A stretch of 64,000 nucleotides of DNA from Microbispora amethystogenes (GTDB lineage Bacteria > Actinomycetota > Actinomycetes > Streptosporangiales > Streptosporangiaceae): NCBI RefSeq assembly GCF_016863015.1, contig NZ_BOOB01000004.1:1-64000 (forward strand), given 5' to 3'. Under the pieces are notes generated by a model that worked only from the letters and a program-made list of their open reading frames with translations, did not search any database and was not told the DNA's origin. Positions 17,030 through 34,205 of this stretch are shown here, piece by piece. Position 1 is the stretch's first letter, and each line of letters starts with the position of its first letter. The translations under genes and the position numbers were made by a program.

Positions 17030-17081
17030 GATCAGATGGCCCGATCAGATGGGCCGATCAGATGGGCCGATCAGGTGGGCA
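17030..17081. repeat. 13-bp tandem repeats running into the amidohydrolase stop codon
   Basis: GATCAGATGGGCC is repeated four times (17030, 17043, 17056, 17069); the first and last copies differ slightly. The last copy overlaps the stop codon of the amidohydrolase gene, so the array may have grown from the gene end. The period equals that of the array at 14088 but the sequence differs. Confidence 0.85.
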
Positions 17082-17937
17082 GGTCGTACACGCGGAGGGC
17101 GTTGTCGCGCAGGAGCTTGCGCTCGGAGCCGGGGCGGAGGCCCAGCTCGGCGATCTCGGTCCGGGCCCGCTGGTGCGGGATCACCGGGAAGTCGGTGCCG
17201 AAGAGCACCTTGTCCTGACCGAAGGTGTTGGCGTAGTGGACGAGCTTGGGGTCCCAGTGCCGGGGCGCGTAGGCGTCCACGCCGATGTAGACGTTGGGGT
17301 GCTTGTACGCGACCGCGATCATCTCCTCGGTCCACGGCCAGCCGATGTGGATGCCGAGGATCTTCAGCTCGGGGAAGTGACAGGCGATCGTGTCGAGCAG
17401 GATGGGGCGGCCGACCGAGGGCAGCGGGTGCTCGTCGCTGTAGCGGAGACAGTGGCCGACCTGCATCTGGATCGGGACGCCCAGCTCGGCGCACTTGGCG
17501 TAGAGCGGGTAGTAGCGGGCGTCGTCGGGCGGCAGTTCGAACCAGTGCGGGTAGAGATGCGCGCCGACGAAGCCGTACTCGCGGACCCATTTCTCCAGCT
17601 CGCGCACGCCGCGCATGCCGGCGTAGGGGTCCAGGCCGATGAGGCCGCTGAAGCGGTCGGGCCGGGCCTGCACGGCGTCGGCCACGTGGCGCGGGTCCAT
17701 CTGCCACGACTCCGGCAGGCCCACCCGGCCCATCTTCGGGGCGATCAGCAGCGCGCGTTCGACGCCGGCCTCGTCCAGCCGCTCGACGTGCTGGTCGAGG
17801 GTGAGGCCGCCCAGCGTGCGGTCCTCGGTGTGCACCTTGCCGCCCAGGAAGGTCTGCGTCCAGCCCGGCCGCGACCGGACCACCTCCGGGGTGAAGAGGT
17901 TGCAGACGATGTCGATCGCCGCGACCCGCTCGCTCAT
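17071..17937 (-). CDS. Amidohydrolase-2 family protein lacking the usual HxH
   Basis: The protein has 288 residues and an ATG start with AAAGG upstream. The fold is that of ACMSD-like decarboxylases/hydrolases: GLIGLDPYAGMRG, GAHLYPHW, QVGHCLRYSD, KILGIHIGWPWTEE and LFGTDFPVIPHQ are recognisable. Members normally open with DxHxH, whereas here the strand reads AIDIVCNLFTPE, so two metal-binding His are absent. The later His residues and the Asp of GTDFP remain. It is the last gene of the minus arm and follows the PaaK-like ligase by 44 bases. It may use an altered metal site or none. Confidence 0.8.
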   Translation of the reverse strand: MSERVAAIDIVCNLFTPEVVRSRPGWTQTFLGGKVHTEDRTLGGLTLDQHVERLDEAGVERALLIAPKMGRVGLPESWQMDPRHVADAVQARPDRFSGLIGLDPYAGMRGVRELEKWVREYGFVGAHLYPHWFELPPDDARYYPLYAKCAELGVPIQMQVGHCLRYSDEHPLPSVGRPILLDTIACHFPELKILGIHIGWPWTEEMIAVAYKHPNVYIGVDAYAPRHWDPKLVHYANTFGQDKVLFGTDFPVIPHQRARTEIAELGLRPGSERKLLRDNALRVYDLPT

Positions 17938-17981
17938 TGCCGAACCTTTCGTCAGTGCTCTTTGCTGCCCAGTGGTGGTGC

Positions 17982-19358
17982 TCACCGATTCGCGGAGGCG
18001 CGTTCGTCGAGGAAACGGCGTGGCTTCATGCGCTCGTCCGCCGGGAAGATCTCGTCGGCCGTCGCCACCTCGACGAGCGGGGTGACGCGGCACGCCTGCT
18101 TGACCGCCGTACGGACCGCCGGGACGACCTCGCGGGCGTCGGCTCCCGCGGTCAGGGCCACCGCCACGACCAGTTCGTCGCCGGAGAGCGGGTCGGACGG
18201 GACCGTCCAGCGCACCGTCGCCCGGTGTTCGAGCACGCCGGGCACCCGCTCGACGGTCCGCCCCAGCACCTGGCCGTCCAGCAACTGGCCGCGCACCTTG
18301 GTCGCGCTGCCGGTGCGGTGGTGATAGGCCACCACCCGGCCGCCGCCGCGGCCACAGTGCGGGCACCTGCCGTGGTCGACGGTCACGACGTCTCCGAGCA
18401 GATATCGCAGCAGCACGGTGCCCCGGCGGTCGAGGTGGGTCAGGGTGAGCCGGCCGGGAGTCCCAGGCGCGCAGGGCCGCCCGTCGTCGTCCACCGCCTC
18501 GATGTGGAACAGCTCCGGGGCGGGGTTGTGGAACCCGCCGCCCGGCTCGCACTCGACCAGGCCGCACTGCAGCTCGGACGCGCCCAGGCTGTTGGAGACG
18601 ACGACCTCCCGCGCGCCGAGGTCGCGGGTCAGCCCGGCGAGCACGTCCGCCGTCTCGGGGGTGCACGGCTCTCCGCTGACCGCGAGCATGCGCACACTCG
18701 GCAGCCGTCCGCCCTGACGGGCCACCTCGTCCAGCACTCTGCGCAGGTAGCTGGGGACGCCCCACAGCGTGGTGGGGTCGCTCGCGACGACCAGCTCGGC
18801 CACCTCGGGCAGGCGGCGCGACACCCCGAACCAGCCGGTGGCGCCGCTCATGCCGCAGACCACGGACGCGCCGAGCGCGGCGGCGGCGTGGTTGGCGCGG
18901 GTCCAGGCGCCGTGCGGCTGCGGGGTGAGCGGATAGAGGTTGGCGATGCGGTCCGCCGAGGTCATGCCGCGGATCTCGGCCATCCGCCGCTGGGCCAGCA
19001 GGATCGCGTGGAAGTCGTACGCCGCCTGGTAGATCGGGGTGGGCGTGGAGGTCGATCCCGAGGTGTAGGCGATGTCCCACAACTGGTCGGCGGGGTCGCC
19101 GGTCGGCTCCAGGCGGAAGCGCTCCGGGGCGGCGGCGAAGTCGGCCTTCCCGGTCAGCGGCAGCAACGGCAGGTCGGCCACGCCCTGTACGTCGCCGGGG
19201 TCGATGCCGCGCTCACGCAGCAGGTCCCGGTAGTACGGGTGCCGGGAGGCGACGCGCCGCATCGTCGCGCGCAGCCGCTCGTCCTGGAGAGGCGCGACGG
19301 CGTCGGGGTCCCACGGGAGACCGGAGGGGCAGGGACGACCGGAGGGGAGCGCGCTCAT
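17982..19358 (-). CDS. PaaK-like adenylate-forming CoA ligase
   Basis: The protein has 458 residues. Early motifs ATMRRVASRHPYYRDLLRE and LPLLPLTGK are typical of phenylacetate-CoA ligases. YTSGSTSTPTPIYQ is the phosphate-binding loop, VSNSLGASELQ the adenine-binding motif, and YLLGDVVTVD the ribose-binding Asp. A GRCPHCGRGGG knuckle (two Cys) follows, and MKPRRFLDERA carries a plausible C-terminal Lys. It probably activates an aromatic or other carboxylic acid with ATP and CoA. Its ATG overlaps the stop of the upstream hydrolase-fold gene. Confidence 0.82.
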   Translation of the reverse strand: MSALPSGRPCPSGLPWDPDAVAPLQDERLRATMRRVASRHPYYRDLLRERGIDPGDVQGVADLPLLPLTGKADFAAAPERFRLEPTGDPADQLWDIAYTSGSTSTPTPIYQAAYDFHAILLAQRRMAEIRGMTSADRIANLYPLTPQPHGAWTRANHAAAALGASVVCGMSGATGWFGVSRRLPEVAELVVASDPTTLWGVPSYLRRVLDEVARQGGRLPSVRMLAVSGEPCTPETADVLAGLTRDLGAREVVVSNSLGASELQCGLVECEPGGGFHNPAPELFHIEAVDDDGRPCAPGTPGRLTLTHLDRRGTVLLRYLLGDVVTVDHGRCPHCGRGGGRVVAYHHRTGSATKVRGQLLDGQVLGRTVERVPGVLEHRATVRWTVPSDPLSGDELVVAVALTAGADAREVVPAVRTAVKQACRVTPLVEVATADEIFPADERMKPRRFLDERASANR

Positions 19359-20305
19359 CCGGCGGCCCGCCCGTCCCCGGAGGGCGTCGCTCCGGGCACC
19401 GCCGTGGGCTGCCCGTGCCCGGCGGAGATGGCTGTGGACGCCGCCGTCGCCGAGGACGCCACCCTCGCCGTGGCTGCCGCCGTGGACTCCGCAGAAGGTG
19501 CCGACGATGGCGCCGATGGGATCGGCAGCACGCGGTCGGCGAAGCGGCGGAGCATCGCGGCCAGTTCCGCCGGTCGTCGCACCGACGGCTGACCGGGAAT
19601 CCCGGGGATCATCTCGTACGCGAAGCCGAGTTCGGCGGCGGCCTCCCGGGTGGCCGGCTCCAGGAACTCGCCCTCGGCGGCGGTGGCCCAGACCGGGCAG
19701 GTCACCTCGCGCAGCGGCGGCAGCGCCTCGTACTCGAACGCGGAATGGTAGGCCCAGTTGAACCGCTCGATCGACCCCAGCATCGCGCTCACCGCCTGGT
19801 GCCGGACGGCGGGGCCGAGGCCGCGCCACAGCGCGTTGTAACGTTCCCAGGCCGCGGTCAGGTGCGAGCCGTCCTCCACCGGGGGCTGGTCGGGCGCCCA
19901 GTTCCGGCGGCGGTCCGCGCGCTGCGCCGGGGTGTACGTCGCGAGCCCCAGCAGGGCGAGCCCGGCGACCCGGCCGGCGGCCTGGCGGGCCACCTCGATC
20001 GCGATGCTCGCGCCGGTGTGCGACCCGGCGACCAGGACGGGACCGTCCAGACCGCGGATGATCTCCACCATCGGCTCGGCGTACTCGGGGATGGTCAGCC
20101 GGCGCGGCGGCGGGTCGGACATGCCGTATCCCGGCGTGTCCGGCGCGATCACCCGGGCCCACGCGGAGAGCGGGGCGATCATGTCCTCGTACACGAAGGA
20201 CGACAGCGGGCTCTCGTGCAGGAGCAGCAGGTGCGGGCCTCCGGTGCCGCCGATCCGGGCGTGGATCTGCCCGCAGGACGTGTCGAAGTACATGCGTCGG
20301 CTCAT
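19355..20305 (-). CDS. Alpha/beta-hydrolase-fold protein with degenerate catalytic triad
   Basis: The protein has 316 residues. LLLLHESPLSSF and VIAPDTPGYGMSDPP are clear alpha/beta-hydrolase landmarks. The nucleophile elbow is AGSHTGASIA, with His where Ser/Asp/Cys is expected. The region of the last catalytic residue reads GIPGQPSVRRPAE, with no His. A tail of about 50 residues (after 265) is rich in Ala, Ser and Thr. GHHTGA-type elbows are known in some uncharacterised hydrolase relatives, so this may be a non-canonical enzyme or a binding protein. It is translationally coupled to the PaaK-like ligase. Confidence 0.75.
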   Translation of the reverse strand: MSRRMYFDTSCGQIHARIGGTGGPHLLLLHESPLSSFVYEDMIAPLSAWARVIAPDTPGYGMSDPPPRRLTIPEYAEPMVEIIRGLDGPVLVAGSHTGASIAIEVARQAAGRVAGLALLGLATYTPAQRADRRRNWAPDQPPVEDGSHLTAAWERYNALWRGLGPAVRHQAVSAMLGSIERFNWAYHSAFEYEALPPLREVTCPVWATAAEGEFLEPATREAAAELGFAYEMIPGIPGQPSVRRPAELAAMLRRFADRVLPIPSAPSSAPSAESTAAATARVASSATAASTAISAGHGQPTAVPGATPSGDGRAAG

Positions 20306-20358
20306 GACGAGCTCAGCTCCTCGCGGAAGACGTGCGGAAAAGCGGTGATCGGTGGGTG

Positions 20359-21177
20359 CTAGGGGCGGTAACCGGCCGCCCGGGACGCCTCCTGCGCCGC
20401 GCCGGCGACCAGCGCGCCGTAGTGCGGCATCTCGGTGGTCTGGAAGCGGTGCAGCGGCCCGCACACCGAGATCGCGCCGAGGACGCGCCCGCCCGCACCG
20501 AGTACGGCGGCGGCGATGCTGGCCGCGCCGGCCTCGCGTTCGCCGGTGCTCACGGCGTATCCACGACGGCGGATCATCGCGACCTCGGCCAGCAACTGGT
20601 CACGGGAGGAGATGGTCGTCGCGGTGACGTGGTCGAGGGAGTGGGTGGCGAGGTAACGCGTGATCTCCTCGTCGTCCATCGCGGCCAGCAGGGCCTTGGA
20701 CGACGCGCCCGCGTGCAGCGGGTACGGATGGCCCAGGGTGACCGACATGCGGATCTCCTGGGGAGACAGCACCTGGTCGACGTAGATGCGCGACCAGCGC
20801 TGCCGCACCGACAGGGTCGCGGTCTCGTCGGTCACGGCGACCAGGCGCTCCAGCAGGGGCCGGACGATGCGCTGGATGTCGAGCTGACGCAGCGCGGCCA
20901 GCCCGACCTGCAACGCGCCGGGGCCGAGGGTGTAGCGCTTGGTGTCGCTCTCGAAGCTGAGGAAGCCGTCGTCGCTGAGCACCTTGAGGATGCGGTGGGC
21001 GACGGCCTTGGACAGCCCGACCTCCCGGGCAAGGGCGGAGACGCCGACGCCCTCCGGGCCGGACTCGCCGACGGCGTAGATCACCTGCAGCGCGCGGCCC
21101 AGCCCGGAGGCCGACCCGTTCGCGCGCGCCGGGTCCTCGCGTTCCTCGCGTTCCTCGAAGGGGGCGGAGATCAGCAT
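20359..21177 (-). CDS. IclR-family regulator of the divergent catabolic locus
   Basis: The protein has 272 residues. The winged helix at about 25-90 includes GLGRALQVIYAV, VGVSALAREVGLSKAVAHRILKVL and DTKRYTLGPGAL. The effector domain follows with SRIYVDQVLSP, HPYPLHAGASSKALLA and REAGAASIAAAVLG. Its ATG overlaps the permease stop (ATGA), so it is made with the transporter. It probably binds the GTTYCG-N5-CGGAAC dyads at 22908 and 23071; IclR-type effectors are often aromatic or small organic acids. Confidence 0.88.
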   Translation of the reverse strand: MLISAPFEEREEREDPARANGSASGLGRALQVIYAVGESGPEGVGVSALAREVGLSKAVAHRILKVLSDDGFLSFESDTKRYTLGPGALQVGLAALRQLDIQRIVRPLLERLVAVTDETATLSVRQRWSRIYVDQVLSPQEIRMSVTLGHPYPLHAGASSKALLAAMDDEEITRYLATHSLDHVTATTISSRDQLLAEVAMIRRRGYAVSTGEREAGAASIAAAVLGAGGRVLGAISVCGPLHRFQTTEMPHYGALVAGAAQEASRAAGYRP

Positions 21178-22034
21178 CAGTGTGCGCCACCTCTGTCGCC
21201 GGAGTTCCAGAACACGATACGACGGTTGGCGTACCGGACGATCAGATGCGCGACGATTCCCAGCACGGACAGCGCGAGCAGCACCGCGAACAGGCCGGGG
21301 ATGTCGAAGTTGTAGTTGGCCTGCAGCAGCTGGTAGCCCAGGCCCTCCTTGGCACCGATGAACTCGCCCACGATCGCGCCGAGGATCGAGAACACGACGC
21401 CGATGTCGAGCCCGGCGAAGATGAACGGCAGCGCGCTGGGCAGCCGCACCATCCGGAAGATCTGGAACTTCGAGGCGCCGAAGCTGGTCAGCATCTCGAC
21501 CTTGTCCGCGTCGGCGGACTTCAGCCCGGCGATGACGTTGACCAGGACCGGGAAGAACGCGATGACCGCGGCCATGATGATCTTCGACTCGGCGCCGAAG
21601 CCGAACCACACCACCATCAGCGGCGCGATGGCGACCTTCGGGATGGTCTGGATCGCCACGACGTACGGCATCACGGTGCGCTCGACGACCCGCACCTGGG
21701 CCACGAAGGTGCCCACCAGGATGGCGCCGACCGCGGCGATCACGAAGCCGGTCAGCGCCTCGGTCACCGTCACCCGGACGTTGCTCCAGAAGGCCGGCGA
21801 GCCGAGCTGGGCGACGAACGCGTCCAGGATCTGCGTCGGCCGGGGCAGCACGTACTCCTTGATCCCCAGTGGCACCGTCAGGAACTGCCAGGCGAGGACC
21901 ACGACGACGAAGACGGCGGGCACGAGGATCAGCTCGGGACGCTCGTGCAGGTCGAGGCGGCGCCGCCGGCGGGGTGCGGCGGTGGCGGCCGGGGCGGCGT
22001 CCGGCTTGGACGGCGCCGTGTTGAGGGAGGCCAT
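21177..22034 (-). CDS. ABC transporter permease (SsuC/TauC type)
   Basis: The protein has 285 residues. A basic cytosolic N-terminus (RRRRRLDLHERP) precedes about six membrane segments. The EAA-type loop VLVNVIAGLKSADADKVEML and FGASKFQIFRMVRLPSALPF identify the BPD_transp_1 permeases of the nitrate/sulfonate/taurine group. It pairs with the ATPase at 22045 and with the binding lipoprotein encoded on the other arm at 25394. Confidence 0.9.
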   Translation of the reverse strand: MASLNTAPSKPDAAPAATAAPRRRRRLDLHERPELILVPAVFVVVVLAWQFLTVPLGIKEYVLPRPTQILDAFVAQLGSPAFWSNVRVTVTEALTGFVIAAVGAILVGTFVAQVRVVERTVMPYVVAIQTIPKVAIAPLMVVWFGFGAESKIIMAAVIAFFPVLVNVIAGLKSADADKVEMLTSFGASKFQIFRMVRLPSALPFIFAGLDIGVVFSILGAIVGEFIGAKEGLGYQLLQANYNFDIPGLFAVLLALSVLGIVAHLIVRYANRRIVFWNSGDRGGAH

Positions 22035-22044
22035 CGTTCGTCTC

Positions 22045-22869
22045 CTAGTTGATGACGCCGGAGTTGTTGAAGTAGCGGCGGATGCGCTCGACGTACACTC
22101 CGGCGGCGTCCGAGGCCATGATGCTGAGATCGCGCGGACGGTCGAGATCGATGTCGATGATCTCGGCGATCCGGCCGGGGCGCGGGGTCATGACGATGAC
22201 CCGGTCGGACAGGAACACCGCCTCGGGGATCGAGTGCGTGACCAGGACGGCCGTCTTCCTGCTCTCCCGCCAGATGCGCAGCAGCTCGACGTTCATGTAC
22301 TCGCGGGTCATCGCGTCGAGCGCGCCGAACGGCTCGTCCAGCAGGAGGACGGCCGGGTCGTGGACGAGGGCGCGGCAGATGCCGGCGCGCTGCTGCATGC
22401 CGCCGGACAGTTCGTTGGGGTACTTGTCGGCGAAACCGCCGAGCCCGACCATGTCGAGCAGTTCCACGGCCCGTTTCCGGTGCGCGGTTCTGTCGAGTTT
22501 CTGCACCTCGACGGGGACCAGCACGTTTTCCAGGATGGTCCGCCACGGCAGCAGCGTCGGCGCCTGGAAAACCATGCCGACCTCGCGCTTCGGCCCGTCC
22601 ACGTCCACCCCGGAGATCCGCACCGTCCCCTCCGAGCGCTGGACCAGCCCGGCGAGGATCTTCAGCAGGGTCGTCTTGCCGCATCCGGACGGGCCGACGA
22701 CCGCGACGAACTCGCCCTTGCGTACGGTGAAGTCGACATCCGCCAGCGCGTGCGTCGGCTCGGACTTCCGCGGCCGGTAGATCTTCTGCAGCCCCCGGAC
22801 GTCGATCCAGCGATCGTGCGCGTCCTCGGGCGTCCGGACGTTGCCGGAACTGGCGGCTGAACGAGTCAC
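22045..22869 (-). CDS. ABC transporter ATPase (SsuB/TauB type)
   Basis: The protein has 274 residues from the GTG at 22867-22869, chosen because GAAGGGA lies six bases upstream; the longer frame adds eight residues. GPSGCGKTT (Walker A), VFQAPTLLPW (Q-loop), ELSGGMQQRAGICRAL (signature), VLLLDEPFGALDAMTR (Walker B) and the VTHSIPEAV switch are complete. It energises uptake of a small organic compound. It is the first gene of the minus arm; dyad GTTTCG-N5-CGGAAC lies 39 bases upstream. Confidence 0.9.
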   Translation of the reverse strand: MTRSAASSGNVRTPEDAHDRWIDVRGLQKIYRPRKSEPTHALADVDFTVRKGEFVAVVGPSGCGKTTLLKILAGLVQRSEGTVRISGVDVDGPKREVGMVFQAPTLLPWRTILENVLVPVEVQKLDRTAHRKRAVELLDMVGLGGFADKYPNELSGGMQQRAGICRALVHDPAVLLLDEPFGALDAMTREYMNVELLRIWRESRKTAVLVTHSIPEAVFLSDRVIVMTPRPGRIAEIIDIDLDRPRDLSIMASDAAGVYVERIRRYFNNSGVIN

Positions 22870-22907: not shown

Positions 22908-22924
22908 GTTTCGATCAGCGGAAC
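22908..22924. promoter_or_regulatory. IclR operator-like dyad, minus-arm side
   Basis: GTTTCG-ATCAG-CGGAAC differs at one base from the perfect dyad at 23071-23087. It lies just upstream of the ATPase gene start. IclR-family proteins often bind short inverted repeats of this kind. Confidence 0.7.
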
Positions 22925-23048: not shown

Positions 23049-23070
23049 GCGTTCGTCTTGCAAATATGTT

Positions 23071-23087
23071 GTTCCGCTCAACGGAAC
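23071..23087. promoter_or_regulatory. IclR operator-like dyad, plus-arm side (perfect)
   Basis: GTTCCG-CTCAA-CGGAAC is an exact inverted repeat with 5-base spacer, about 20-30 bases downstream of the predicted transcription start of the plus arm. It matches the dyad at 22908 in arm sequence and spacing. Confidence 0.75.
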
Positions 23088-23127: not shown

Positions 23128-23955
23128 GTGGAATTGAATGGGTTCTCGAACCCGCTGTCTCCGTCGGGGACCGCGTCCCTGGTCGAACCGCCGCCGCACC
23201 ACATCGGGGCGGACGCGATCCGCGTCGTGTTCCGGGCGGGCCGTGACCTGGCCCGCCGCTACCTGCCCGAGCCGCTGGAGCCGGTCGAGGACGGCCTCGG
23301 GTTCGCGTACGTCGCGGACATGGTGAAGGTCAGCGCCGACGAGCCGGACCAGGCGTTCCTCTCACCGCGCCGCACCCAGTACGGCGAGGGCATCGTCGGG
23401 TTCTACTGCCGACTGGGCGAGCGGGCCGGGCGGTTCAGCACGTTCATCTGGGTCACCCAGGACTGGTCGATGGGCTTCGGCTCGATCATGGGCTGGGGCA
23501 AGAAGATCGGCGAGGTCTGGCGGACGCACCTCAACCCCTACAACCCGGCCATGGGCGAGGTGGGGCCGGGCGCCCGGCTCGCCGGCGAGGTCACCCGGCT
23601 CGGGCGTCCCGTGCTGCGGGTCGGCATCGAGATCGAACGGGCCATCACGCCCGCCGAGATGCCGGGTTACGGCGACCGCGGCTACCTGCTCCGCCACCAG
23701 CCGTCGCCCGGTCCGGAGATCCCGGCGGCCACCCAACTGCTCGAACTGCAACTGCGCGACGTGCGGACCGGCGACGTGTTCACCGGCCGCCCCCACCTGG
23801 AGATCCACGACGCGGAGAACGAGGACCTGGCCCCGCTGCGCGACTGCGAGCCCATCGCGGCGTACGCGTACAAGCAGGGCTGGACGACCGACACCGACGC
23901 CCGGCTCGTGCACGACTACTCCGCCGCCGACCACTCCACGGGCCGGCGGGCCTGA
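23128..23955 (+). CDS. Acetoacetate decarboxylase-fold protein
   Basis: The protein has 275 residues with a GTG start after AGAAGGAG. MGWGKKIGEVW near 121-131 corresponds to the paired-lysine motif of acetoacetate decarboxylase, in which the first Lys forms the Schiff base (K125) and the second lowers its pKa. YCRLGERAGRFSTFIWVTQD is also family-like. Relatives act as decarboxylases, aldolase-dehydratases or cyclases on keto acids. It is the first gene of the plus arm and overlaps the next gene by one base, so it is central to the pathway. Confidence 0.82.
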   Translation: MELNGFSNPLSPSGTASLVEPPPHHIGADAIRVVFRAGRDLARRYLPEPLEPVEDGLGFAYVADMVKVSADEPDQAFLSPRRTQYGEGIVGFYCRLGERAGRFSTFIWVTQDWSMGFGSIMGWGKKIGEVWRTHLNPYNPAMGEVGPGARLAGEVTRLGRPVLRVGIEIERAITPAEMPGYGDRGYLLRHQPSPGPEIPAATQLLELQLRDVRTGDVFTGRPHLEIHDAENEDLAPLRDCEPIAAYAYKQGWTTDTDARLVHDYSAADHSTGRRA

Positions 23956-24191
23956 TGACGACGGCGCCGCGCTACCTCGGCGAGCCGCACGCCGACGCGC
24001 TGCTGTCCGGGCTGCTGCTGCTCACGCAGGAGGTCGCGGTGCTGCGGCACCGGTGCGCCGTGCTGGAGGCCGAGCGGGACGGCCGGCAGCCGCCCTCGCC
24101 GGACGACTCCGACCTCATGCCGCGCCTGGTGGACGAGCTCTTCGGGCGCCTCGGCACGACCCAGGGCACGACCGGGAAGGAAGACCGATGA
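23955..24191 (+). CDS. Small protein of unknown function
   Basis: The protein has 78 residues. Its ATG shares a base with the upstream stop, and its own stop overlaps the methyltransferase ATG, so it is locked into translation between the two. It is predicted to be mostly helical: residues 11-40 (ADALLSGLLLLTQEVAVLRH) look like an amphipathic or coiled-coil helix, with a short helix near the end (LVDELFGRLG). No family was recognised. It could be a small subunit or adaptor of one of its neighbours; it resembles the short helical partner proteins found beside multi-subunit enzymes. Confidence 0.7.
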   Translation: MTTAPRYLGEPHADALLSGLLLLTQEVAVLRHRCAVLEAERDGRQPPSPDDSDLMPRLVDELFGRLGTTQGTTGKEDR

Positions 24192-26592: not shown

Positions 26593-28005
26593 GTGAACAA
26601 GGCGTGGGACGTCATCGTCGCCGGTGCCGGCACCGGAGGACTCGTCCTGGCGACCTTCGCCGCCCGCCGGGGCGCGCGGGTGCTGGTCGCCGATCCGGCG
26701 CCGCGCGTCGGCGGCACGCTGCACATCGCGACCGGGCAGCTCAGCGCCGCGGGCACCCGCCTGCAGGCCGAGCGGGGCATCGAGGACTCCCCCGAGGCCC
26801 ACCTGGCGGACATCCTCCGGATCAGCAAGGGCACCGTGGACGAGGGCCTGGTGCGGCTCGCCGTCGAGAACGCGGCGGACACCTTCGAGTGGCTGCTCGG
26901 GAACGGGTACGAGGTGCTGCCGGACCACCCGGTGCAGGGCCAGAACCACGAGCCGTACAGCACCCCGCGGTACTACTGGGGCCCGGAGGCGGGGCGGTCC
27001 ATCCTGGCCGCGCTGCTGCCGCCGTTCGAGGCCGAGCGCGCGAAGGGCGGCATCACCCTCCTCCTGGAGACCGAGGTGGTCGCGCTGCGCCAGGAGGACG
27101 GCGCGGTCACCGGCGTCGCGGTGCGGCGCGCGGACGGGAGCACCGAGGAGCACACCGGCCGCAACGTCGTGCTCGCCACCGGCGGCTACAACTCCGACCC
27201 GGAGCGGTTCAGGAAGCTGAACGGCGTCACCGCGTACGCCGCCGCCTCCTATCCGTACGCCAGGGGCCGGGGTCTCGACCTCGGCGTCTCGGCCGGAGGG
27301 TACGTGCGCGGCGGGGAGAAGTACCTCTGCTCGTTCGGCTCGGTGCTCGACCACGACGGCCACCCCGCGCCGGTGCTGTGCCGGCCGGTGCACTGGCCGG
27401 AGATGCGGCAGCCCTGGGAGATCTACGTCAACGCGCACGGCGAGCGGTTCGTCGCGGAGGACGACCCGAGCGTGGACCGGCGGGAGCACGCCCTGCGCGC
27501 GCAGCCGGAGCTGCGGCGCTGGATCGTCTTCGACGACCGCATCGCCCGGGAGGCGCCGCGGCTCGTCCCGGACTGGCCGCTGGAGACGCTGCTGGGCCAC
27601 TTCGGCACCCACCCGATGTTCCACCGGGCGGACACGCTGGAGGAGCTCGGCCGGCTGGCGGGGGTCCACCCGGAGAACCTCGCGCGCACCGTCGCCGAGT
27701 ACAACGCGGCGCTCGGCGGCGAGGACCCGCTGGGCCGCACGCACCGGCCGCTGCCGGTGGCCGAGCCGCCGTTCTACGCGATCCGCGTGCAGGGCATGTC
27801 GATCACCTCCACGGCCGGGCTCGCGGTGGACACGCGGCTGCGCGTCGTGGACCGGGCCGGTGACCCCGTCCCGAACCTGTACGCCATCGGCGAGATCCTC
27901 GGCTCGGGTCAGCTGATGGGCGACTCGTTCTGCGGCGGCATGCTGGCCACGCCCGCCATGACGTTCGGCCGGCTGCTCGGCGATCGGATGCTGACATGGA
28001 CCTGA
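26593..28005 (+). CDS. FAD-dependent dehydrogenase (fumarate reductase/KstD-like)
   Basis: The protein has 470 residues with a GTG start after GAAGGGA. VIVAGAGTGGLVLATFAARRG is the FAD-binding Rossmann motif, VVLATGGYNSDPERF the second nucleotide motif, and the C-terminal FCGGMLATPAMTFGRLLG the flavin contact typical of flavocytochrome c and 3-ketosteroid dehydrogenases. It probably introduces or removes a C=C bond next to a carbonyl. It overlaps the CoA-transferase gene by ten bases. Confidence 0.86.
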   Translation: MNKAWDVIVAGAGTGGLVLATFAARRGARVLVADPAPRVGGTLHIATGQLSAAGTRLQAERGIEDSPEAHLADILRISKGTVDEGLVRLAVENAADTFEWLLGNGYEVLPDHPVQGQNHEPYSTPRYYWGPEAGRSILAALLPPFEAERAKGGITLLLETEVVALRQEDGAVTGVAVRRADGSTEEHTGRNVVLATGGYNSDPERFRKLNGVTAYAAASYPYARGRGLDLGVSAGGYVRGGEKYLCSFGSVLDHDGHPAPVLCRPVHWPEMRQPWEIYVNAHGERFVAEDDPSVDRREHALRAQPELRRWIVFDDRIAREAPRLVPDWPLETLLGHFGTHPMFHRADTLEELGRLAGVHPENLARTVAEYNAALGGEDPLGRTHRPLPVAEPPFYAIRVQGMSITSTAGLAVDTRLRVVDRAGDPVPNLYAIGEILGSGQLMGDSFCGGMLATPAMTFGRLLGDRMLTWT

Positions 28006-29228
28006 CCCCGACGCAGCCTCACAAGCAGCAGCCCACCGGCCCGCTGGCCGGCGTCCGGGTGATCGACGCCTCCACGATCCTGGCCGGGCCGCTCTGCTGC
28101 CAGATCCTCGGCGACTTCGGCGCCGACGTCATCAAGATCGAGCACCCGGTGGCCGGGGACAGCATGCGCGGGCACGGCAGGTCGAAGGACGGCAAGCCGC
28201 TGTGGTGGAAGGAGATCTCCCGCAACAAGCGCACGATCGGGCTCAGCCTCTCCGACCCCGACGGCGCGGCGGTGTTCCTCCGGCTGGCCGAGACCGCCGA
28301 CGTCGTCGTGGAGAACTTCCGCCCGGGCACGCTGGAGCGCTGGGGAATCGGCCCCGAGAGGCTGCACGAGGTGAACCCGCGGCTCGTGCTGGTGCGGGTG
28401 ACCGGGTTCGGGCAGCACGGCCCGTACGCGAGCCGGCCCGGCTTCGGCACCCTGGCCGAGGCGATGAGCGGCTTCGCCCACCTCACCGGCCAGCCCGACG
28501 GCCCGCCGACGCTCCCGGCCTTCGGCCTCGCGGACAGCATCTGCGGCATCGCCGCCTCGTCGGCCACCATGATGGCCCTCTATCACCGGGACCTGCACGG
28601 CGGCGCCGGACAGGTGATCGACATGAGCCTGCTGGAGCCGATCCTGACCGCCGTCGGCCCCGGCCCGCTCGAATACGACCAGCTCGGGCACGTGGGGCAC
28701 CGGCACGGCAACCGTTCGACGAACAACGCGCCGCGCAACACCTACCGCACCAAGGACGGCCGCTGGGTGGCGATCTCGACCAGCGCCCAGCAGATCGCCG
28801 AACGCGTGCTGCGCCTCGTCGGGCACCCCGAGGTGATCGACGAGCCGTGGTTCGCCACCGGCGCCCAGCGCGCCGAGCACGCCGACGAACTGGACGAGTA
28901 CGTCGGAGGCTGGATCGCCGCACGCACCCGCGCCGAGGTTCTGGAGGCCTTCACCGCCGCCGGCGCCGCGGTGGCGCCGATCTACGACATGGCGGACATC
29001 GCCGCCGACGAGCACGTGCGGGCCACCCAGATGATCACGACGGTGGACGACCCGGACTTCGGGCCGATGGCCATGCACAACGTGATGTGGCGGATGTCCG
29101 CGACGCCCGGCTCGATCCGGTTCAGCGGCCGGGATCTGGGGGCCGACACCGACGAGGTGCTGGTGGAGGGGCTGGGTTACGACCCCGAGCGGGTGGCGGA
29201 GCTACGCGCCCGCCGCGTCGTCCGATGA
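27996..29228 (+). CDS. Class III CoA-transferase (CaiB/BaiF)
   Basis: The protein has 410 residues. GVRVIDASTILAGPLCCQIL and DFGADVIKIEHP at the N-terminus, ENFRPGTLERWGIG, and FGLADSICGIAA with the expected catalytic Asp180 identify the family. It moves CoA between carboxylic acids through aspartyl-CoA anhydride intermediates. Here it probably activates a pathway acid before the lyase at 33084 cleaves it. Confidence 0.9.
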   Translation: MDLTPTQPHKQQPTGPLAGVRVIDASTILAGPLCCQILGDFGADVIKIEHPVAGDSMRGHGRSKDGKPLWWKEISRNKRTIGLSLSDPDGAAVFLRLAETADVVVENFRPGTLERWGIGPERLHEVNPRLVLVRVTGFGQHGPYASRPGFGTLAEAMSGFAHLTGQPDGPPTLPAFGLADSICGIAASSATMMALYHRDLHGGAGQVIDMSLLEPILTAVGPGPLEYDQLGHVGHRHGNRSTNNAPRNTYRTKDGRWVAISTSAQQIAERVLRLVGHPEVIDEPWFATGAQRAEHADELDEYVGGWIAARTRAEVLEAFTAAGAAVAPIYDMADIAADEHVRATQMITTVDDPDFGPMAMHNVMWRMSATPGSIRFSGRDLGADTDEVLVEGLGYDPERVAELRARRVVR

Positions 29229-29276
29229 GAGGGCGTCCGATGAGAGATGCGCGATGAGTGACGTCCGAATGAGAAG
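29217..29276. repeat. Short direct repeats CGTCCGATGAGA after the CoA-transferase
   Basis: CGTCCGATGAGA occurs at the CoA-transferase stop codon and again 15 bases later, with a third degenerate copy (CGTCCGAATGAGA) near 29262. The 127-base spacer to the cyclase gene consists largely of these copies. The pattern looks like end-of-gene duplication. Confidence 0.7.
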
Positions 29277-29355
29277 CGCGCGTGACAGCGCGGTGGAAGC
29301 GGCGACACGGCCGAGCCCGCCCGCGTACGGGCGAGGCAGTGAAACGAGAGGAAGC

Positions 29356-30192
29356 ATGACGACCGCGACGAAGGGGGACCCGCTGCTGCGCATCGCCGGC
29401 GGCGGGCTGCGGATCTACGACCTGGGCAGGCCGTTCACCATCGGCATGCCGCAGTCGCCCAACCACCCGCCGTACTGGCACACCCTCCCGCGCCGTCACG
29501 GCGACCGGGTGCGGGCCGACGGCGGATCGGCCGCCAACGACCTGATCAGCATGGGCACGCACGTCGGCACGCACATCGACGCCCTCGCCCACGTCTCGCA
29601 GGACGGCCGCCTGTACGGCGGCGGGGACGCCGCGGCGGCCGGGGTCGGCGGGCGGTACGAGGAACTCGGCGCGCACACCATCGAGCCGATCGTCCGCCGC
29701 GGGGTGCTGCTGGACGTGCCCGCCGCCATCGGCGAACGGCACTGCGCGCCCGGCTACGAGATCACCCCGGCCGACCTGGAGACCGCCGTACGGCGGCAGG
29801 GCACCGCGCCGGAGGCCGGTGACGTGGTGCTGATCCGCAGCGGCTGGGGCCGGCACTTCGACGACCCCGACCGGAACGTCTACATCGGGCAGGACTCCGG
29901 CGTTCCCGGCGTGTCCGAGGCGGGGGCGCGCTGGCTCGCCGAGCGCCGGGTGCACGCGGTGGGCGCCGACACCATCGCCTTCGAACGGCTCGCCCCCGGC
30001 GCCGGGCACGCCGCGCTGCCCGCGCACCGCGTGCTGCTGGTCGAGCACGGCATCTACATCATCGAGGCGATGGCGCTGGAGGACCTGGCCGCGGCCGGGG
30101 TGCACGAGTTCCTCTTCGTGCTCAGCCCCCTGGCCCTTTACGGCGCCACCGGTTCCCCGGCGCGCCCGCTGGCGGTGGTCACCGGTGCCTGA
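29356..30192 (+). CDS. Cyclase-family metal hydrolase (kynurenine formamidase/isatin hydrolase-like)
   Basis: The protein has 278 residues with an ATG after GAGAGGAAGC. The metal motif H69-V-G-T-H73-I-D75 is complete, and RIYDLGRPFTIGMPQSPNHP and VVLIRSGWGRHFDDP are family-typical. Members hydrolyse amide or lactam bonds such as N-formylkynurenine or isatin. The gene ends inside the start of MmgE/PrpD. In this locus it offers a second amide- or ring-opening step next to the hydantoinase. Confidence 0.86.
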   Translation: MTTATKGDPLLRIAGGGLRIYDLGRPFTIGMPQSPNHPPYWHTLPRRHGDRVRADGGSAANDLISMGTHVGTHIDALAHVSQDGRLYGGGDAAAAGVGGRYEELGAHTIEPIVRRGVLLDVPAAIGERHCAPGYEITPADLETAVRRQGTAPEAGDVVLIRSGWGRHFDDPDRNVYIGQDSGVPGVSEAGARWLAERRVHAVGADTIAFERLAPGAGHAALPAHRVLLVEHGIYIIEAMALEDLAAAGVHEFLFVLSPLALYGATGSPARPLAVVTGA

Positions 30193-31624
30193 CCGGACCC
30201 TCGCGGAGGAACTCGCCGCGTTCGCCGCCAGGACGGCGGCCGGCGCGCTGCCCGAAGCGGTGGCGGCCAGCGTGCGGCGGCGCGTGCTCGACGTGCTCGG
30301 GCTGTGCGTCGCCGCGGGCGACCTGCCCACCAGCCGCGCCGCGCTGGAGCACGTGGTGGAGCAGGGCGGCCGCCCGGAGGCGCACGCCATCGGCGCGCCG
30401 CGCCCGGTGCCGGCCGCGTGGGCCGCGTTCGTCAACGGCGTGACCGCGCACTCCCTCGACTACGACGACACGCACCTGCCCTCGGTGCTGCATCCCAGCG
30501 CCGCCGTCGTCCCCGCCGCGCTGGCCGCGGCGGAGGTGGCGGACGCCGACGGCGCCGCCGTCGTCAGCGCGATCGCCGTCGGGCTGGAGACGACGGTGCG
30601 GCTCGGCATGGCGGCCTACGATCCGGAGCTCGGCAACTCGGTGTTCTTCGAGCACGGCCAGCACGCGACCTCGATCTGCGGCGCGATGGGCGGCGCGGTC
30701 GCCGCGGCCCTGCTGCTCGGCCTGGGCGAGGAGGGCGTACGGCACGCGCTCGGCGTCACCGCCTCGATGGCGGCCGGGGTGATCGAGGCGAACCGCACCG
30801 GCGGGACGGTCAAGCGGCTGCACTGCGGCTGGGCCGCGCACTCCGCGGTCACCGCCGCCCAGCTGGTGCGCCGCGGGTTCACCGGGCCGCCCACCGTGCT
30901 GGAGGGCCGGTTCGGGTTCTTCGAGGCGTTCGTCCGGGACCGCTACGACCCCTCCGCCGTCACCGACGGGCTCGGCGAGCAGTGGGAGGTGCCGGGCATC
31001 TTCTTCAAGCCTTACCCGGCCAACCACTTCACGCACACCGCCGTGGACGCCGCCGCCCTGCTCCGGAAGCGCGGGGTGCGGCCCGAGGACGTCCGCTCGG
31101 CGACGCTGGGCGTGCCGTCGGCGGTGGTCCGCACGATCGGCGAGCCGATCGCCGGGAAACGGGAGCCGCAGACCGGCTACCAGGCCCAGTTCTCCGGTCC
31201 GTACGCCGTCGCGGTGGGCCTGTTCGGCGGGTCCGGCCTGGGCGCGGGTCTCGCCGACTACACCGACGAACTCGCCGCCGACCCGGCCCGCCGGGCGCTC
31301 ATGGCCCGCGTCGAGGTCGTCCCCGACGCGCGCTGCGACGAGATCTTCCCCCACCAGTTCCCGGCCGTGCTCACGGTCACCACCCACGACGGCGCCGAAT
31401 GGGTCGAGGAGGTGCCGGAGAACCGGGGCGGCCCGCGGCGCCCGCTCACCGACGCGGAGCTCGCCCGCAAGTTCCGCGACAACGTCGCCGGACGGGTGCC
31501 GCCCGGCGCGGCCGCGGATGTGGAGCGGGCCGTGCTGACGCTCGGCACCGGTCCCTCCCTGCCCGTCATCGGCTCGCTGCTCGCCCGGCTGTCAGTTCAG
31601 GAGGATTCATGGCCCTCGATTTGA
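30185..31624 (+). CDS. MmgE/PrpD family protein
   Basis: The protein has 479 residues with a GTG start overlapping the cyclase gene by eight bases. LDYDDTHLPSVLHPSAAVVPAA and MAAGVIEANRTGGTVKRLHCGWAAHSAVTAAQLVRRGFTGP-type blocks (about 95-115 and 195-235) are diagnostic. Members include 2-methylcitrate dehydratase and cis-aconitate decarboxylase relatives, acting on tricarboxylic or related acids as dehydratase, decarboxylase or isomerase. It has no signal peptide. It overlaps the hydantoinase gene by 16 bases. Confidence 0.88.
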   Translation: MPDRTLAEELAAFAARTAAGALPEAVAASVRRRVLDVLGLCVAAGDLPTSRAALEHVVEQGGRPEAHAIGAPRPVPAAWAAFVNGVTAHSLDYDDTHLPSVLHPSAAVVPAALAAAEVADADGAAVVSAIAVGLETTVRLGMAAYDPELGNSVFFEHGQHATSICGAMGGAVAAALLLGLGEEGVRHALGVTASMAAGVIEANRTGGTVKRLHCGWAAHSAVTAAQLVRRGFTGPPTVLEGRFGFFEAFVRDRYDPSAVTDGLGEQWEVPGIFFKPYPANHFTHTAVDAAALLRKRGVRPEDVRSATLGVPSAVVRTIGEPIAGKREPQTGYQAQFSGPYAVAVGLFGGSGLGAGLADYTDELAADPARRALMARVEVVPDARCDEIFPHQFPAVLTVTTHDGAEWVEEVPENRGGPRRPLTDAELARKFRDNVAGRVPPGAAADVERAVLTLGTGPSLPVIGSLLARLSVQEDSWPSI

Positions 31625-33075
31625 TCATCGCGAACGCGCTCGTCGTCGACCACGACCGGCCCGAGCCCGAACGACTCGACATCGGCGTCGCGGACGGCCG
31701 GATCGCCCGCCTCGCGCCCTCGATCCCCGCCGAGGACGCGGCGACCGTCGTGGACGCCGAAGGCAGGCTGGCCTTCCCCGGCGTGGTGGACGCCCACCAG
31801 CACTGGGGCATCTACAACCCGCTGTCCGTCGACACCGAGGTGGAGAGCCGGGCGTGCGCCCAGGGCGGCGTCACCTCCGCGCTCAACTACATGCGCACCG
31901 GGCAGTACTACCTCAACAAGGGCGGCCCGTACGCGGAGTTCTTCCCCGAGGTGCTGGCCGGTTCCGAGGGACGGGCACTGGTCGACTACGCCTTCCACCT
32001 GGCGCCGATGATGAACGAGCACATCGACGAGATCCCGATGCTCATCGAGCGGTTCGGGGTCACCTCGTTCAAGATCTTCATGTTCTACGGCGGGCACGGC
32101 CTGCACGGCCGGTCCAGCGACCAGAGCGCGTTCCTGATGACGCCCGAGGGCGAGCGGTACGACTTCGCGCACTTCGAGTTCGTGATGCGCGGCATCCAGG
32201 CGGCGCGGGAGCGGTTCCCCGACCTCGCCGACGAGATCTCGCTCGGGCTGCACTGCGAGACCGCCGAGATCATGACCGCGTACACGAAGCTGGTGGAGGC
32301 CGACTCGTCGCTGTCCGGCCTGGCGGCGTACTCGGCGTCCCGGCCGCCGCACTCGGAAGGCCTGGCCGTGTCGATCGCGGCGTACCTGGCGCACGAGACC
32401 GGCCTGCCGAAGATCAACCTGCTGCACCTGAGCTCGGCCAAGGCGGTCGACGCCGCGCTGCGGATGGCGAGGGCGTTCCCGCACATCGACTTCCGCCGCG
32501 AGGTCACCATCGGCCACCTGCTCGCCGACGTGGACACCGCGCACGGCCTCGGCGGCAAGGTCAACCCGCCGCTGCGCCCGCGCGAGGACGTCGAGGCGCT
32601 GTGGCGGCACCTGCTCGACGGCGAGCTCGACTGGGTGGTCAGCGACCACGCGTGCTGCCGGGAGGAGCTCAAGTTCGGCAACCCGCCCGAGGACGTCTTC
32701 CTGGCCAAGTCGGGCTTCGGCGGCGCCGAGTATCTGCTGCCCGGACTGGTCACCGAGGGCGGGCGGCGCGGGCTGTCGTACCAGCGGATCGCACAGCTCA
32801 CCTCGTGGAACCCCGCCCAGCGGTTCGGGCTGCGGACCAAGGGCGCGCTCCAGGTCGGCTACGACGCGGACGTCGCGCTGGTCGACCCGTCGGTGACCTG
32901 GACGGTGCGCGCGGAGGACTCGGAGTCGGCGCAGGAGTACACACCCTTCGAGGGCTTCGAGCTCACCGCCGCCGTCACCGACACCTTCCTGCGCGGCCGG
33001 CGGATCCTCGCCGACGGCAAGGTCACCGGCGAGGCGGACGGCGTCTACCTGCGCCGGCCGACCGTACGGGATTGA
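31609..33075 (+). CDS. Second hydantoinase/cyclic-imidase-type amidohydrolase
   Basis: The protein has 488 residues; CAGGAGG supports the ATG. The metal set is complete: H63 and H65 (DAHQH), K155 (SFKIFMFY), H215 (GLHCETAE), H273 (NLLHLSS) and D346 (VSDHACC). It differs clearly from the hydantoinase at 9598 in the loops (GGHGLHGRSSDQ insert near 161-172), so the two probably use different ring substrates. Opening of a hydantoin, imide or lactam ring is expected. Confidence 0.88.
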   Translation: MALDLIIANALVVDHDRPEPERLDIGVADGRIARLAPSIPAEDAATVVDAEGRLAFPGVVDAHQHWGIYNPLSVDTEVESRACAQGGVTSALNYMRTGQYYLNKGGPYAEFFPEVLAGSEGRALVDYAFHLAPMMNEHIDEIPMLIERFGVTSFKIFMFYGGHGLHGRSSDQSAFLMTPEGERYDFAHFEFVMRGIQAARERFPDLADEISLGLHCETAEIMTAYTKLVEADSSLSGLAAYSASRPPHSEGLAVSIAAYLAHETGLPKINLLHLSSAKAVDAALRMARAFPHIDFRREVTIGHLLADVDTAHGLGGKVNPPLRPREDVEALWRHLLDGELDWVVSDHACCREELKFGNPPEDVFLAKSGFGGAEYLLPGLVTEGGRRGLSYQRIAQLTSWNPAQRFGLRTKGALQVGYDADVALVDPSVTWTVRAEDSESAQEYTPFEGFELTAAVTDTFLRGRRILADGKVTGEADGVYLRRPTVRD

Positions 33076-33083
33076 GGCGAAAG

Positions 33084-34205
33084 GTGACCGAACAGGAGGG
33101 GCCGGGCCGCATGGTGGCGCGCAGTTACCTGTACGTGCCGGGAGACCGGCGGGAGAAGCTCGCGCGGGCACGCGAGCGCGGGGCGGACGGGCTGGTGCTC
33201 GACCTGGAGGACGCCGTCGCCCCGCCCGCGAAGGACACCGCACGCGAGGTGGTGGCGGCGTTCCTCGCCGGACTCACCGGACTCGCCGGACTCGCCGACG
33301 AGGGCGCGGCGGCCTCCGCACCGGACGGTCCCGCTCCGGGCGCACCTCCCCCGGCCACCCCGAACGAATTCGGCCCGAGCGGATCCACTTGGAGCGGATC
33401 GACTCGGAGCGGATCGACTCGGAGCGGATCGACTCCGCACGGGTCCGCTCTTGGCACATCTTCCCCGGCCGCTTCGCCCGGGTCCGCGTCGAACGGGCCC
33501 ACTCCGGCCGGGTCCGCGCCGAACGGGTCGGAGCTGTGGGTGCGGGTGAACGCGGACCGCCTGGACGAGGACGTGCCCGCCGTGACCTCGGCCTCCTGCG
33601 CCGGCGTCTGGGTGCCCAAGGCCGATCCGGAGTCGCTCGCCCGGGTCGACGCCCTGCTCACCGCGGCCGAGCGCGCCGCCGGGCTCCCGGCGGGCGTGAT
33701 GCGGATGGTCCCCGTCATCGAGACCGCTCGCGGGCTGCTCGCCGTCGCCGAGATCGCCCGTGCTCCGCGCGTGCTGCGCCTGGGCATCGGGGAGGCGGAC
33801 CTCGCCGCCGAGCTCGGCGTACGGCCCGGCCGTGACCGGGCGGAACTGGCCCCGCACCGGGCGGCCCTGGTGGTGGCCTCCGCCGCGGCCGGGCTCGCCG
33901 CACCGATCGCGCCCGTCGAGACCGACCTGTCGGCGACCCGCGCGGACCTCGCCGCCAGCACCCGCGCCCTGCTGTGCGAGGGCTTCCGGGCGCGCACCGC
34001 GATCCACCCCCGCCAGGTGCCGGTCATCAACGAGGTGTTCACCCCGTCGCCCGCCGAGATCGCCGCGGCGCGCGACGTCGTCACACGGCTGCGCGCCGCG
34101 AACCAGTCCGGTACGGGTGTCGCCGTCGACGCCCGGGGACGGATGATCGATGAGGCCGTCGCACGGTCGGCCCGCGAAGTCCTCGGCCGGGCCCCCGCGT
34201 CATAG
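33084..34205 (+). CDS. CitE/HpcH-type CoA-ester lyase with a low-complexity insert
   Basis: The protein has 373 residues from the GTG at 33084; an ATG at 33111 with AGGAGG upstream is an equally good start. SYLYVPGDRREKLARARERG, GLVLDLEDAV, VRVN, MVPVIETARGLL and RLGIGEADLAAELG are the (beta/alpha)8 landmarks with acidic metal ligands. Residues about 64-149, normally some 15 long, are a Gly/Ser/Thr/Pro-rich insert built partly from 15-bp DNA repeats. The enzyme should split a malyl- or citramalyl-type CoA ester into acetyl- or pyruvate-type products. It is the last gene of the plus arm. Confidence 0.84.
   Translation: MTEQEGPGRMVARSYLYVPGDRREKLARARERGADGLVLDLEDAVAPPAKDTAREVVAAFLAGLTGLAGLADEGAAASAPDGPAPGAPPPATPNEFGPSGSTWSGSTRSGSTRSGSTPHGSALGTSSPAASPGSASNGPTPAGSAPNGSELWVRVNADRLDEDVPAVTSASCAGVWVPKADPESLARVDALLTAAERAAGLPAGVMRMVPVIETARGLLAVAEIARAPRVLRLGIGEADLAAELGVRPGRDRAELAPHRAALVVASAAAGLAAPIAPVETDLSATRADLAASTRALLCEGFRARTAIHPRQVPVINEVFTPSPAEIAAARDVVTRLRAANQSGTGVAVDARGRMIDEAVARSAREVLGRAPAS
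33377..33436 (+). repeat. Four 15-bp in-frame tandem repeats inside the lyase gene
   Basis: GAGCGGATCGACTCG-type units occupy 33377, 33392, 33407 and 33422 and encode repeated SGSTR/SGSTW. Since 15 is a multiple of three, changes in copy number keep the frame. The array lies in a surface loop of the lyase. Confidence 0.88.

Follow-up and report, generated by a model that had tools for sequence, protein, structure and literature searches.

Within the 64,000 nucleotides of Microbispora amethystogenes DNA analyzed here (contig NZ_BOOB01000004.1, positions 1 to 64,000, from a genome of 8.13 Mb; hereafter the window), sixteen genes at 17071..34205 form a real, conserved catabolic unit that is probably co-regulated. 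Six genes lie on the minus strand (m1-m6) and ten on the plus strand (p1-p10), diverging from a 258-base spacer, and recurrence in relatives together with a shared operator-like motif makes the gene set more than a chance assembly. To the reading that the locus is one inducible catabolic unit for a nitrogen-containing ring compound we assign a probability of about one half. The "full set" of genes that a first-pass annotation had put forward as an undescribed pathway joins two things, a core found widely and an addition specific to the lineage.

All sixteen genes are open frames, and a codon-based caller finds 16/16, with later starts for m2, m3 and p10 than the start codons that we chose; in some relatives' loci (e.g. 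L121) this caller leaves gaps. Pfam confirmed the families proposed in the first-pass annotation for every gene on both arms except the 78-residue p2, which had no Pfam match, while the statement that most junctions overlap has to be reduced to half, because 7 of the 14 same-arm junctions do so (by 1 to 16 bases). Curated NCBIfam cut-offs were reached by none of the sixteen proteins among the matches listed, which for the ATPase, methyltransferase, FAD protein and hydantoinase are the best 25 (the best 25 of 60 for the hydantoinase). The features of the locus are as follows.

17071..17937, minus strand: m1, amidohydrolase-2 family protein without N-terminal His-x-His (Pfam Amidohydro_2, PF04909)
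17982..19358, minus strand: m2, PaaK-like acyl-CoA ligase (Pfam AMP-binding, PF00501; best NCBIfam matches FlxY and PaaK, all below cut-off)
19355..20305, minus strand: m3, alpha/beta hydrolase (Pfam alpha/beta hydrolase)
20359..21177, minus strand: m4, IclR regulator (Pfam IclR)
21177..22034, minus strand: m5, permease of ABC importer (Pfam BPD_transp_1)
22045..22869, minus strand: m6, ATPase of ABC importer (Pfam ABC_tran)
22908..22924, no strand: operator-like copy 1, GTTTCGATCAGCGGAAC (motif search)
23071..23087, no strand: operator-like copy 2, GTTCCGCTCAACGGAAC, 163 bases from copy 1
23128..23955, plus strand: p1, acetoacetate-decarboxylase-fold (ADC-fold) protein (Pfam ADC, PF06314); G-x-x-K stretch and preceding Glu, presumably catalytic, common to 5upb and MppR
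23955..24191, plus strand: p2, 78-residue member of the methyltransferase partner family (profile E 1.5e-5)
24188..25348, plus strand: p3, class I methyltransferase with about 200 residues ahead of the methyltransferase domain (Pfam methyltransferase)
25394..26512, plus strand: p4, NMT1/SsuA-type binding lipoprotein of the importer (Pfam NMT1 binding protein)
26593..28005, plus strand: p5, FAD protein of the fumarate reductase/tricarballylate dehydrogenase type (Pfam FAD_binding_2)
27996..29228, plus strand: p6, class III CoA-transferase, core (Pfam CoA_transf_3)
29356..30192, plus strand: p7, cyclase-family hydrolase, core (Pfam Cyclase)
30185..31624, plus strand: p8, MmgE/PrpD protein, core (Pfam MmgE_PrpD)
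31609..33075, plus strand: p9, hydantoinase-type cyclic amidohydrolase, core (Pfam Amidohydro_1/3)
33111..34205, plus strand: p10, CitE-like CoA-ester lyase, core (Pfam HpcH_HpaI); Ser/Gly/Pro-rich insert of about 75 residues, four relatives (one in genome G393) totaling 277-293 residues

The conserved core and the genes added to it

A search with p9 across 296 genomes of the class, the own genome included (threshold E 1e-100), recovered its subfamily in 18, and the other 17 carry it at 66-78% (14 genomes) or 44-46% identity (3 genomes); judged by sequence, p9 belongs to a distinct hydantoinase subfamily. One stretch was taken from each of these 17 genomes, and in the resulting 17 core loci the CoA-transferase p6 is present in 16 (59-76%), the MmgE/PrpD protein p8 at 50% identity or more in 14, the cyclase p7 in 12 (51-76%), the lyase p10 in 10 (37-46%) and the IclR regulator m4 in 9 (37-54%). 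These counts are lower bounds, because a contig end or the 20-kb limit truncates several of the stretches. A search with p8 (E 1e-80; both thresholds were our choice) in 296 class genomes, treated as the same draw since size and handles agree, yielded 19 genomes. Both p8 and p9 occur in 17 genomes, p8 only in 2, p9 only in 1 and neither in 276, corresponding to a Fisher value of 1.7e-24 (2.5e-23 without the own genome), which overstates independence because the genomes are related.

The ADC-fold protein p1, the amidohydrolase-2 m1 and the ligase m2 had no match at E 1e-3 in the 17 core loci, nor in any of the 23 related stretches when the six transporter-selected ones described below are added (for m2 the search covered the fetched loci only), and only their position links them to the locus. 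The use of the ADC-fold gene as a search anchor was dropped, only distant relatives being available. Across 14 members of the genus, p1 matched distant ADC-fold proteins (26-30%) in 4 and none in 10, and m1 had no match in the three other genus members of the class sample. As the earlier term "altered" amidohydrolase implied, m1 is indeed devoid of the N-terminal His-x-His, which we take to be an expectation of the family. Two relatives at 54-55% identity, in G154 and in an Erythrobacter locus, also lack it, so that the loss is a shared trait and not decay; the Erythrobacter relative adjoins an acyl-CoA ligase (Pfam), as does, by inspection, that in G154.

Importer, operator-like motif and the two arms

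The importer ATPase m6 was searched against 289 genomes of the family (threshold E 1e-90), which returned relatives at 75-78% identity in 6 of the 288 other genomes, all six in the same kind of operon. In each of them the binding protein, ATPase, permease, IclR regulator and CoA-transferase follow in this order on one strand, with extra genes between permease and regulator in five, and the ATPase, permease, binding protein and regulator next to the core share 72-77%, 60-66%, 38-44% and 51-58% identity with those of the window. The cyclase, MmgE/PrpD and hydantoinase genes continue in five of these operons (not in G463), the CitE-like gene in four (not in G712 and G463), and an alpha/beta hydrolase at 38-40% to m3 is likewise found in four. 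Upstream, four operons carry an old-yellow-enzyme-type gene, a methyltransferase and its small partner, while SDR-type and M20-type genes occur in five and four, respectively; the old-yellow-enzyme, SnoaL and M20 assignments were confirmed by Pfam for G393 only, the rest being made by inspection. Read from these six relatives, 12 of the 16 window genes (m3-m6, p2-p4, p6-p10) recur in a single operon type, which runs on one strand there and corresponds to the two arms in the window. For m1, m2, p1 and p5 no match was obtained in the six stretches of about 40 kb, so the ADC fold, FAD protein, ligase and amidohydrolase-2 seem to stand where the relatives have old-yellow-enzyme, SnoaL, SDR and M20 proteins, and by this comparison the four genes look like a lineage-specific addition. 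A Streptomyces plasmid shows a row of binding protein, ATPase (74%), permease (66%) and hydantoinase (74%).

These operons bear directly on whether two unrelated operons lie side by side in the window. The core does occur without the minus-arm importer, accompanied by LIV- or Dpp-type (both largely by inspection) or MFS-type transport, as such a juxtaposition would allow; however, the presence of importer, IclR regulator and CoA-transferase on one strand in 6/6 transporter-selected relatives, the recurring motif and the remnants of both arms in order in genome G001 speak against it and render it highly improbable. The proposals of one importer shared by both arms and of one catabolic unit spanning them are thus borne out by the six relatives, where ATPase, permease and binding protein adjoin the core, and a splitting of the arms into unrelated operons, which the first-pass annotation had named as refuting its idea, was not seen, though the core is found with other importers too. 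Against the full set as a unit, the ADC-fold, PaaK-like ligase, amidohydrolase-2 and FAD (p5) genes look added to the twelve that recur.

Another genome of the genus, G001, which consists of a single contig, has the counterpart of the flank at window positions 7459-8144; after it, in unchanged order and packed into about 1 kb, come fragments that match 17065-17354, 17429-17757, 32141-32245 and 34156-34224 (nucleotide identity 95.7-97.6%). The simplest reading of these fragments is that the locus was once present in G001 and decayed by deletion.

The divergent spacer contains two copies of GTTCCG-N5-CGGAAC. When up to two mismatches are allowed, 61 sites are found in 21 sequences (the 17 core loci, a second cluster of G131, G393, G391 and the window stretch), and 47 of these are intergenic by our gene calls versus 17% expected (binomial 2e-24); since the motif was derived from the window, the window's 3 of the 61 sites are not independent. 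The sites are often paired about 100-190 bases apart and precede FAD, CoA-transferase, IclR or transporter genes. For the stricter form GTTYCGNTNANCGRAAC, the own genome has three sites, both spacer copies included, G266 has two, and G131 and G157 have one each; its reversed control has no site in any of the 15 genomes searched. Given this recurring palindrome, control of the locus by the IclR regulator is likely. In G131 a motif pair precedes a cluster of FAD, methyltransferase, small-protein and importer genes on a different contig from the core, which suggests that core and second cluster belong to one regulon. Two further candidate members, namely the third site in the own genome (C18), near genes that look unrelated, and a G266 site (C51) near another IclR gene, were not retained.

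Catalytic residues, substrate and competing explanations

The hydantoinase p9 keeps a dimetal center (H63, H65, K155, H215, H273 and D346, in columns at least 95% identical across 17 rows), which we take to be the His-x-His, carboxylated Lys, two His and Asp metal ligands. It thereby shares fold family and ligands with the hydantoinase/dihydropyrimidinase/allantoinase family, but among the matches listed it stays below the cut-offs for allantoinase (225.3 of 357.85 bits), hydantoinase, dihydropyrimidinase and ErtD, and its constant partners are a CoA-transferase and an MmgE/PrpD protein. The sequence H-V-G-T-H-x-D-A-x-x-H in p7, presumably a metal motif, and Asp180 in p6, whose role we likewise assume, are similarly conserved, with at least 95% identity in their alignment columns. 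For p8, the residues binding the 1,4-dicarboxylate in IDS epimerase, given in the accessible part of PMC12290011 as H85, D88, H99, H150, K198 and K266, all have equivalents (H89, D92, H103, H160, K210, K275). The second catalytic base, Tyr145 in IDS epimerase and Tyr148 in methylsuccinate isomerase according to the same part of that paper, is replaced by Phe155 in p8 and by Phe in 13/13 aligned sequences, the window's included, which places p8 outside the two-base epimerases and isomerases. As the binding residues are kept and Phe stands for Tyr, p8 most likely dehydrates, hydrates or decarboxylates a substituted 1,4-dicarboxylate and does not epimerize it. Comparison of p10 with the itaconate lyase RipC/Ccl (150.2 of 375 bits) and of p5 with the tricarballylate dehydrogenase TcuA (162.3 of 369 bits) remained below cut-off, and Pfam recognized no MaoC domain (itaconyl/mesaconyl-CoA hydratase), no N-carbamoyl amino acid hydrolase and no BMC-H/BMC-P shell gene among the 16 genes.

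Partner genes in relatives, the M20 amidase of G393 among them, suggest cleavage of a ring C-N bond and, after it, CoA chemistry on C4/C5 dicarboxylates. On a plasmid of Rhodococcus gordoniae (no paper on strain DND3 was among the literature matches listed), the core adjoins HyuA, HyuB, an amidase, a second CoA-transferase with an MmgE/PrpD protein, and a MaoC protein matching mesaconyl-CoA hydratase. A second gene group in G266, G095 and G131 comprises FAD monooxygenase, isochorismatase, arylmalonate-decarboxylase-like and carbon-nitrogen hydrolase genes (families confirmed for G266, by inspection for the other two), and a gammaproteobacterium combines hydantoinase (64%) and methyltransferase (49%) with HyuA/HyuB, an aconitase-family protein and, by inspection, the small partner.

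From the computed unit, conserved core, recurring motif and catalytic residues we infer regulator binding, substrate, step order, products and the roles of the variable genes along the following lines. The IclR regulator, bound at the two spacer palindromes, would control both arms, and the NMT1/SsuA-type ABC importer would take up a nitrogen-containing ring compound, on whose side chain the variable genes (methyltransferase and partner, FAD, ADC-fold, ligase, amidohydrolase-2, alpha/beta hydrolase) may work. The hydantoinase p9 would open a cyclic imide- or hydantoin-like ring and the cyclase-family hydrolase p7 would remove the remaining amide, so that a substituted 1,4-dicarboxylate could go to p8, which, being of the one-base type, would probably catalyze dehydration/hydration or decarboxylation. 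Loading of the dicarboxylate with CoA would fall to p6, and p10 would split a malyl/citramalyl-type thioester into acetyl-CoA and a 2-oxo acid. The first-pass suggestion of a nitrogen-ring substrate, opening by hydantoinase and/or cyclase, and CoA loading and splitting of a di- or tricarboxylate is in this form plausible.

Several observations weigh against such a single unit for a nitrogen-containing ring. The 61 loose-motif sites are a modest excess over a Markov-shuffle mean of 41, the signal lying in their placement, and the strict motif is found in none of 11 of the 15 genomes searched, ten of these 11 being core-bearing; only the looser form is general among relatives. G463 has importer, IclR regulator and CoA-transferase without the remaining core genes, locus L114 has the hydantoinase without other core genes, and the methyltransferase of the transporter-selected operons is only 33-34% identical to p3. 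The FAD protein p5 is absent from these six stretches and mostly less than 35% alike to FAD proteins of the core loci, the ADC-fold gene has no relative above 33% in 245 other genomes of the phylum, and p10 is less conserved than p6-p9 in addition to carrying its insert. Because a carbamoylase, a clear half-amidase and a MaoC hydratase are all lacking among the 16 genes, some steps are either absent or carried out elsewhere. Finally, the hydantoinase family covers activity on several ring types, and the substrate class of p7 is broad.

Salvage of hydantoins or N-carbamoyl amino acids would assign p9 the opening of a 5-substituted hydantoin, with an M20-type carbamoylase encoded elsewhere freeing the amino acid and CoA-transferase and lyase finishing the skeleton. 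The best NCBIfam matches of p9 include allantoinase and hydantoin-5-propionate amidohydrolase, an M20 protein occurs by inspection in 4/6 relatives' operons (Pfam-confirmed in one), and an Asp/Glu/hydantoin-racemase-type protein lies near the hydantoinase in 4/17 core loci (Pfam-confirmed in one). However, the 16 genes include no carbamoylase, p9 falls far short of the family cut-offs, and MmgE/PrpD and CoA-transferase accompany it much more constantly, which leaves salvage rather unlikely. A nitrogen-free substrate such as a terpenoid, steroid or polyketide fragment, with p9 as lactonase and p7 hydrolyzing another bond, would fit PaaK-like ligases, amidohydrolase-2 proteins, FAD proteins and ADC folds, which we take to be common in such pathways, as well as the methyltransferase relatives located next to dehydrogenases on sphingomonad plasmids. 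Against it, unrelated C-N hydrolases (HyuA/HyuB, isochorismatase, carbon-nitrogen hydrolase, M20) recur by the core or the methyltransferase, and we consider it unlikely. The methyltransferase, the sole NCBIfam match of p1 (the enduracididine enzyme MppR, below cut-off) and an ABC ATPase gene following the locus, the end of which matches the DrrA type below threshold, might also indicate biosynthesis of a small secondary metabolite instead of catabolism; this appears very unlikely in view of the several importer types and the IclR regulator that accompany the core, the CoA lyase as end step, and a conserved set in which no exporter-like gene was seen.

Catabolism of a nitrogen-containing ring, which we prefer, can be set beside known systems. 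No pathway with the full gene set was found in the open-access literature searched (by title and start of abstract; subscription papers lie largely outside it), in line with the first-pass claim that none is described. Nicotinate fermentation by Eubacterium barkeri offers what we presume to be a likeness, namely hydrolytic opening of a reduced ring followed by methylated C4-dicarboxylates and a lyase. An isonicotinate/citrazinate route (tricarballylate to aconitate to itaconate, as we assume it to run) has some appeal, given the resemblance of p5 to TcuA and the one-base site kept in p8; it counts as no more than a possible route, no paper on it was among the literature matches listed, and a ring-hydroxylating molybdenum enzyme was not noticed in the core loci, no search aimed at one having been made. 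The itaconate/methylsuccinate cluster of Cupriavidus necator and Pseudomonas aeruginosa, as far as the accessible part of PMC12290011 describes it, likewise groups CoA-transferase, MmgE/PrpD and CitE-type CoA lyase around 1,4-dicarboxylate chemistry, but that part names no cyclic amidohydrolase or cyclase, the MmgE/PrpD protein there is a two-base isomerase with Tyr where p8 has Phe, and its MaoC hydratase and acyl-CoA dehydrogenase have no counterpart among the 16 genes. In the accessible part of PMC9304392, the nicotinate pathway of Aspergillus nidulans is similar in logic, with old-yellow-enzyme reduction, opening of a cyclic imide by an imidase and then an amidase, and the old-yellow-enzyme-type gene of 4/6 relatives' operons (Pfam-confirmed in G393) parallels it; its imidase HxnM, however, is of the PuuE/deacetylase kind, unlike p9, and the route as given there leads to alpha-hydroxyglutarate and involves neither a CoA-transferase nor a CitE-type lyase. 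The same part mentions an enamidase step in the E. barkeri fermentation.

In bacterial microcompartment (BMC) loci of unknown function (BUF), the accessible parts of PMC4207490 and PMC8217296 take amidohydrolases and deaminases as a sign of nitrogen compounds and list isochorismatase; unlike such loci, the 16 window genes include no shell protein. Genome G391 joins BMC shell genes (C7, L139/L140) to relatives of p3 (47%), p5 (42%), p6 (43%), m3 (40%) and p9 (32%), along with HyuA (HyuB by inspection), isochorismatase and, by inspection, a Dpp-type importer; a named BMC type was not assigned to it. The stretch L141:5719-6960 covers its gene only in part.

The methyltransferase pair, flanking genes and wider meaning

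Relatives of the methyltransferase p3 are common: one contig scan confirmed at least 567, and of the 80 loci kept (45-52% identity) none holds the whole gene set, the hydantoinase recurring at 64% in L054 and the amidohydrolase-2 at 55% in L069. Small genes of a single family, 110 residues long at the median, accompany the methyltransferase in 67/80 loci, within 400 bases downstream in 61, upstream in 4 and further off in 2. A profile of these 67 proteins against 3077 frames from the window and actinomycete loci gave nine matches, p2 among them at E 1.5e-5; the other eight adjoin methyltransferase or importer genes, and the next frame scored E 3.2. By this result, p2 is a short, divergent member of the methyltransferase-partner family (21-34% identity in the alignment), for which neither p2 nor one G266 member had a Pfam or NCBIfam match. 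In G391 the small-protein match sits inside a longer protein preceding the methyltransferase. Co-occurrence of methyltransferase and core (4/4 genomes) was discarded as a test, the profile having held own and core-adjacent sequences, with only G131 independent and there on another contig.

Several other arrangements of the pair were observed. In L143, L117/L144 (G266, G095) and L152/L153 (G131), two methyltransferase and two small partner genes are interleaved with an apparent Dpp-type importer, whereas in 28/80 loci, from Nostocales and other cyanobacteria (among L017-L085), the methyltransferase follows a tryptophan synthase beta-like gene (by inspection) within 400 bases. Novosphingobium megaplasmids carry three to five methyltransferase relatives each, and pSA1 contains one with a small partner (by inspection), an Amdase-type protein, an FAD monooxygenase and a protein resembling PuuE-type cyclic imidase, without Pfam match. 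In the window itself, the minus-strand genes at 8085-16665 encode a second amidohydrolase (9598-10995), SIS, PfkB kinase, RidA-like, FCD regulator and SDR proteins, a sugar-type ABC importer and an isochorismatase, and look like another ring or nucleoside catabolism unit, of which only the edge piece 8085-8144 matched the decayed G001 site.

A bolder extension, which we regard as a long shot, would see here a widespread pathway for cyclic imides from tetrapyrrole or pyridine decay (alkyl-maleimides, glutarimides) to acetyl-CoA and a 2-oxo acid, in which the methyltransferase and its dedicated partner would be a needed two-part upper-half enzyme and some lineages would house a version of the pathway in a microcompartment. 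The locus also provides a setting for the methyltransferase family, which counts hundreds of relatives, and for its small partner. If a nitrogen-containing ring is indeed broken down by this unit, about 6% of the sampled class genomes would hold a catabolic route without description in the literature searched, and the unit might offer a lead to one type of microcompartment whose function is unknown. In that case the conserved core, importer and motif would make the substrate directly findable through one regulator, one importer and one ring-opening enzyme.

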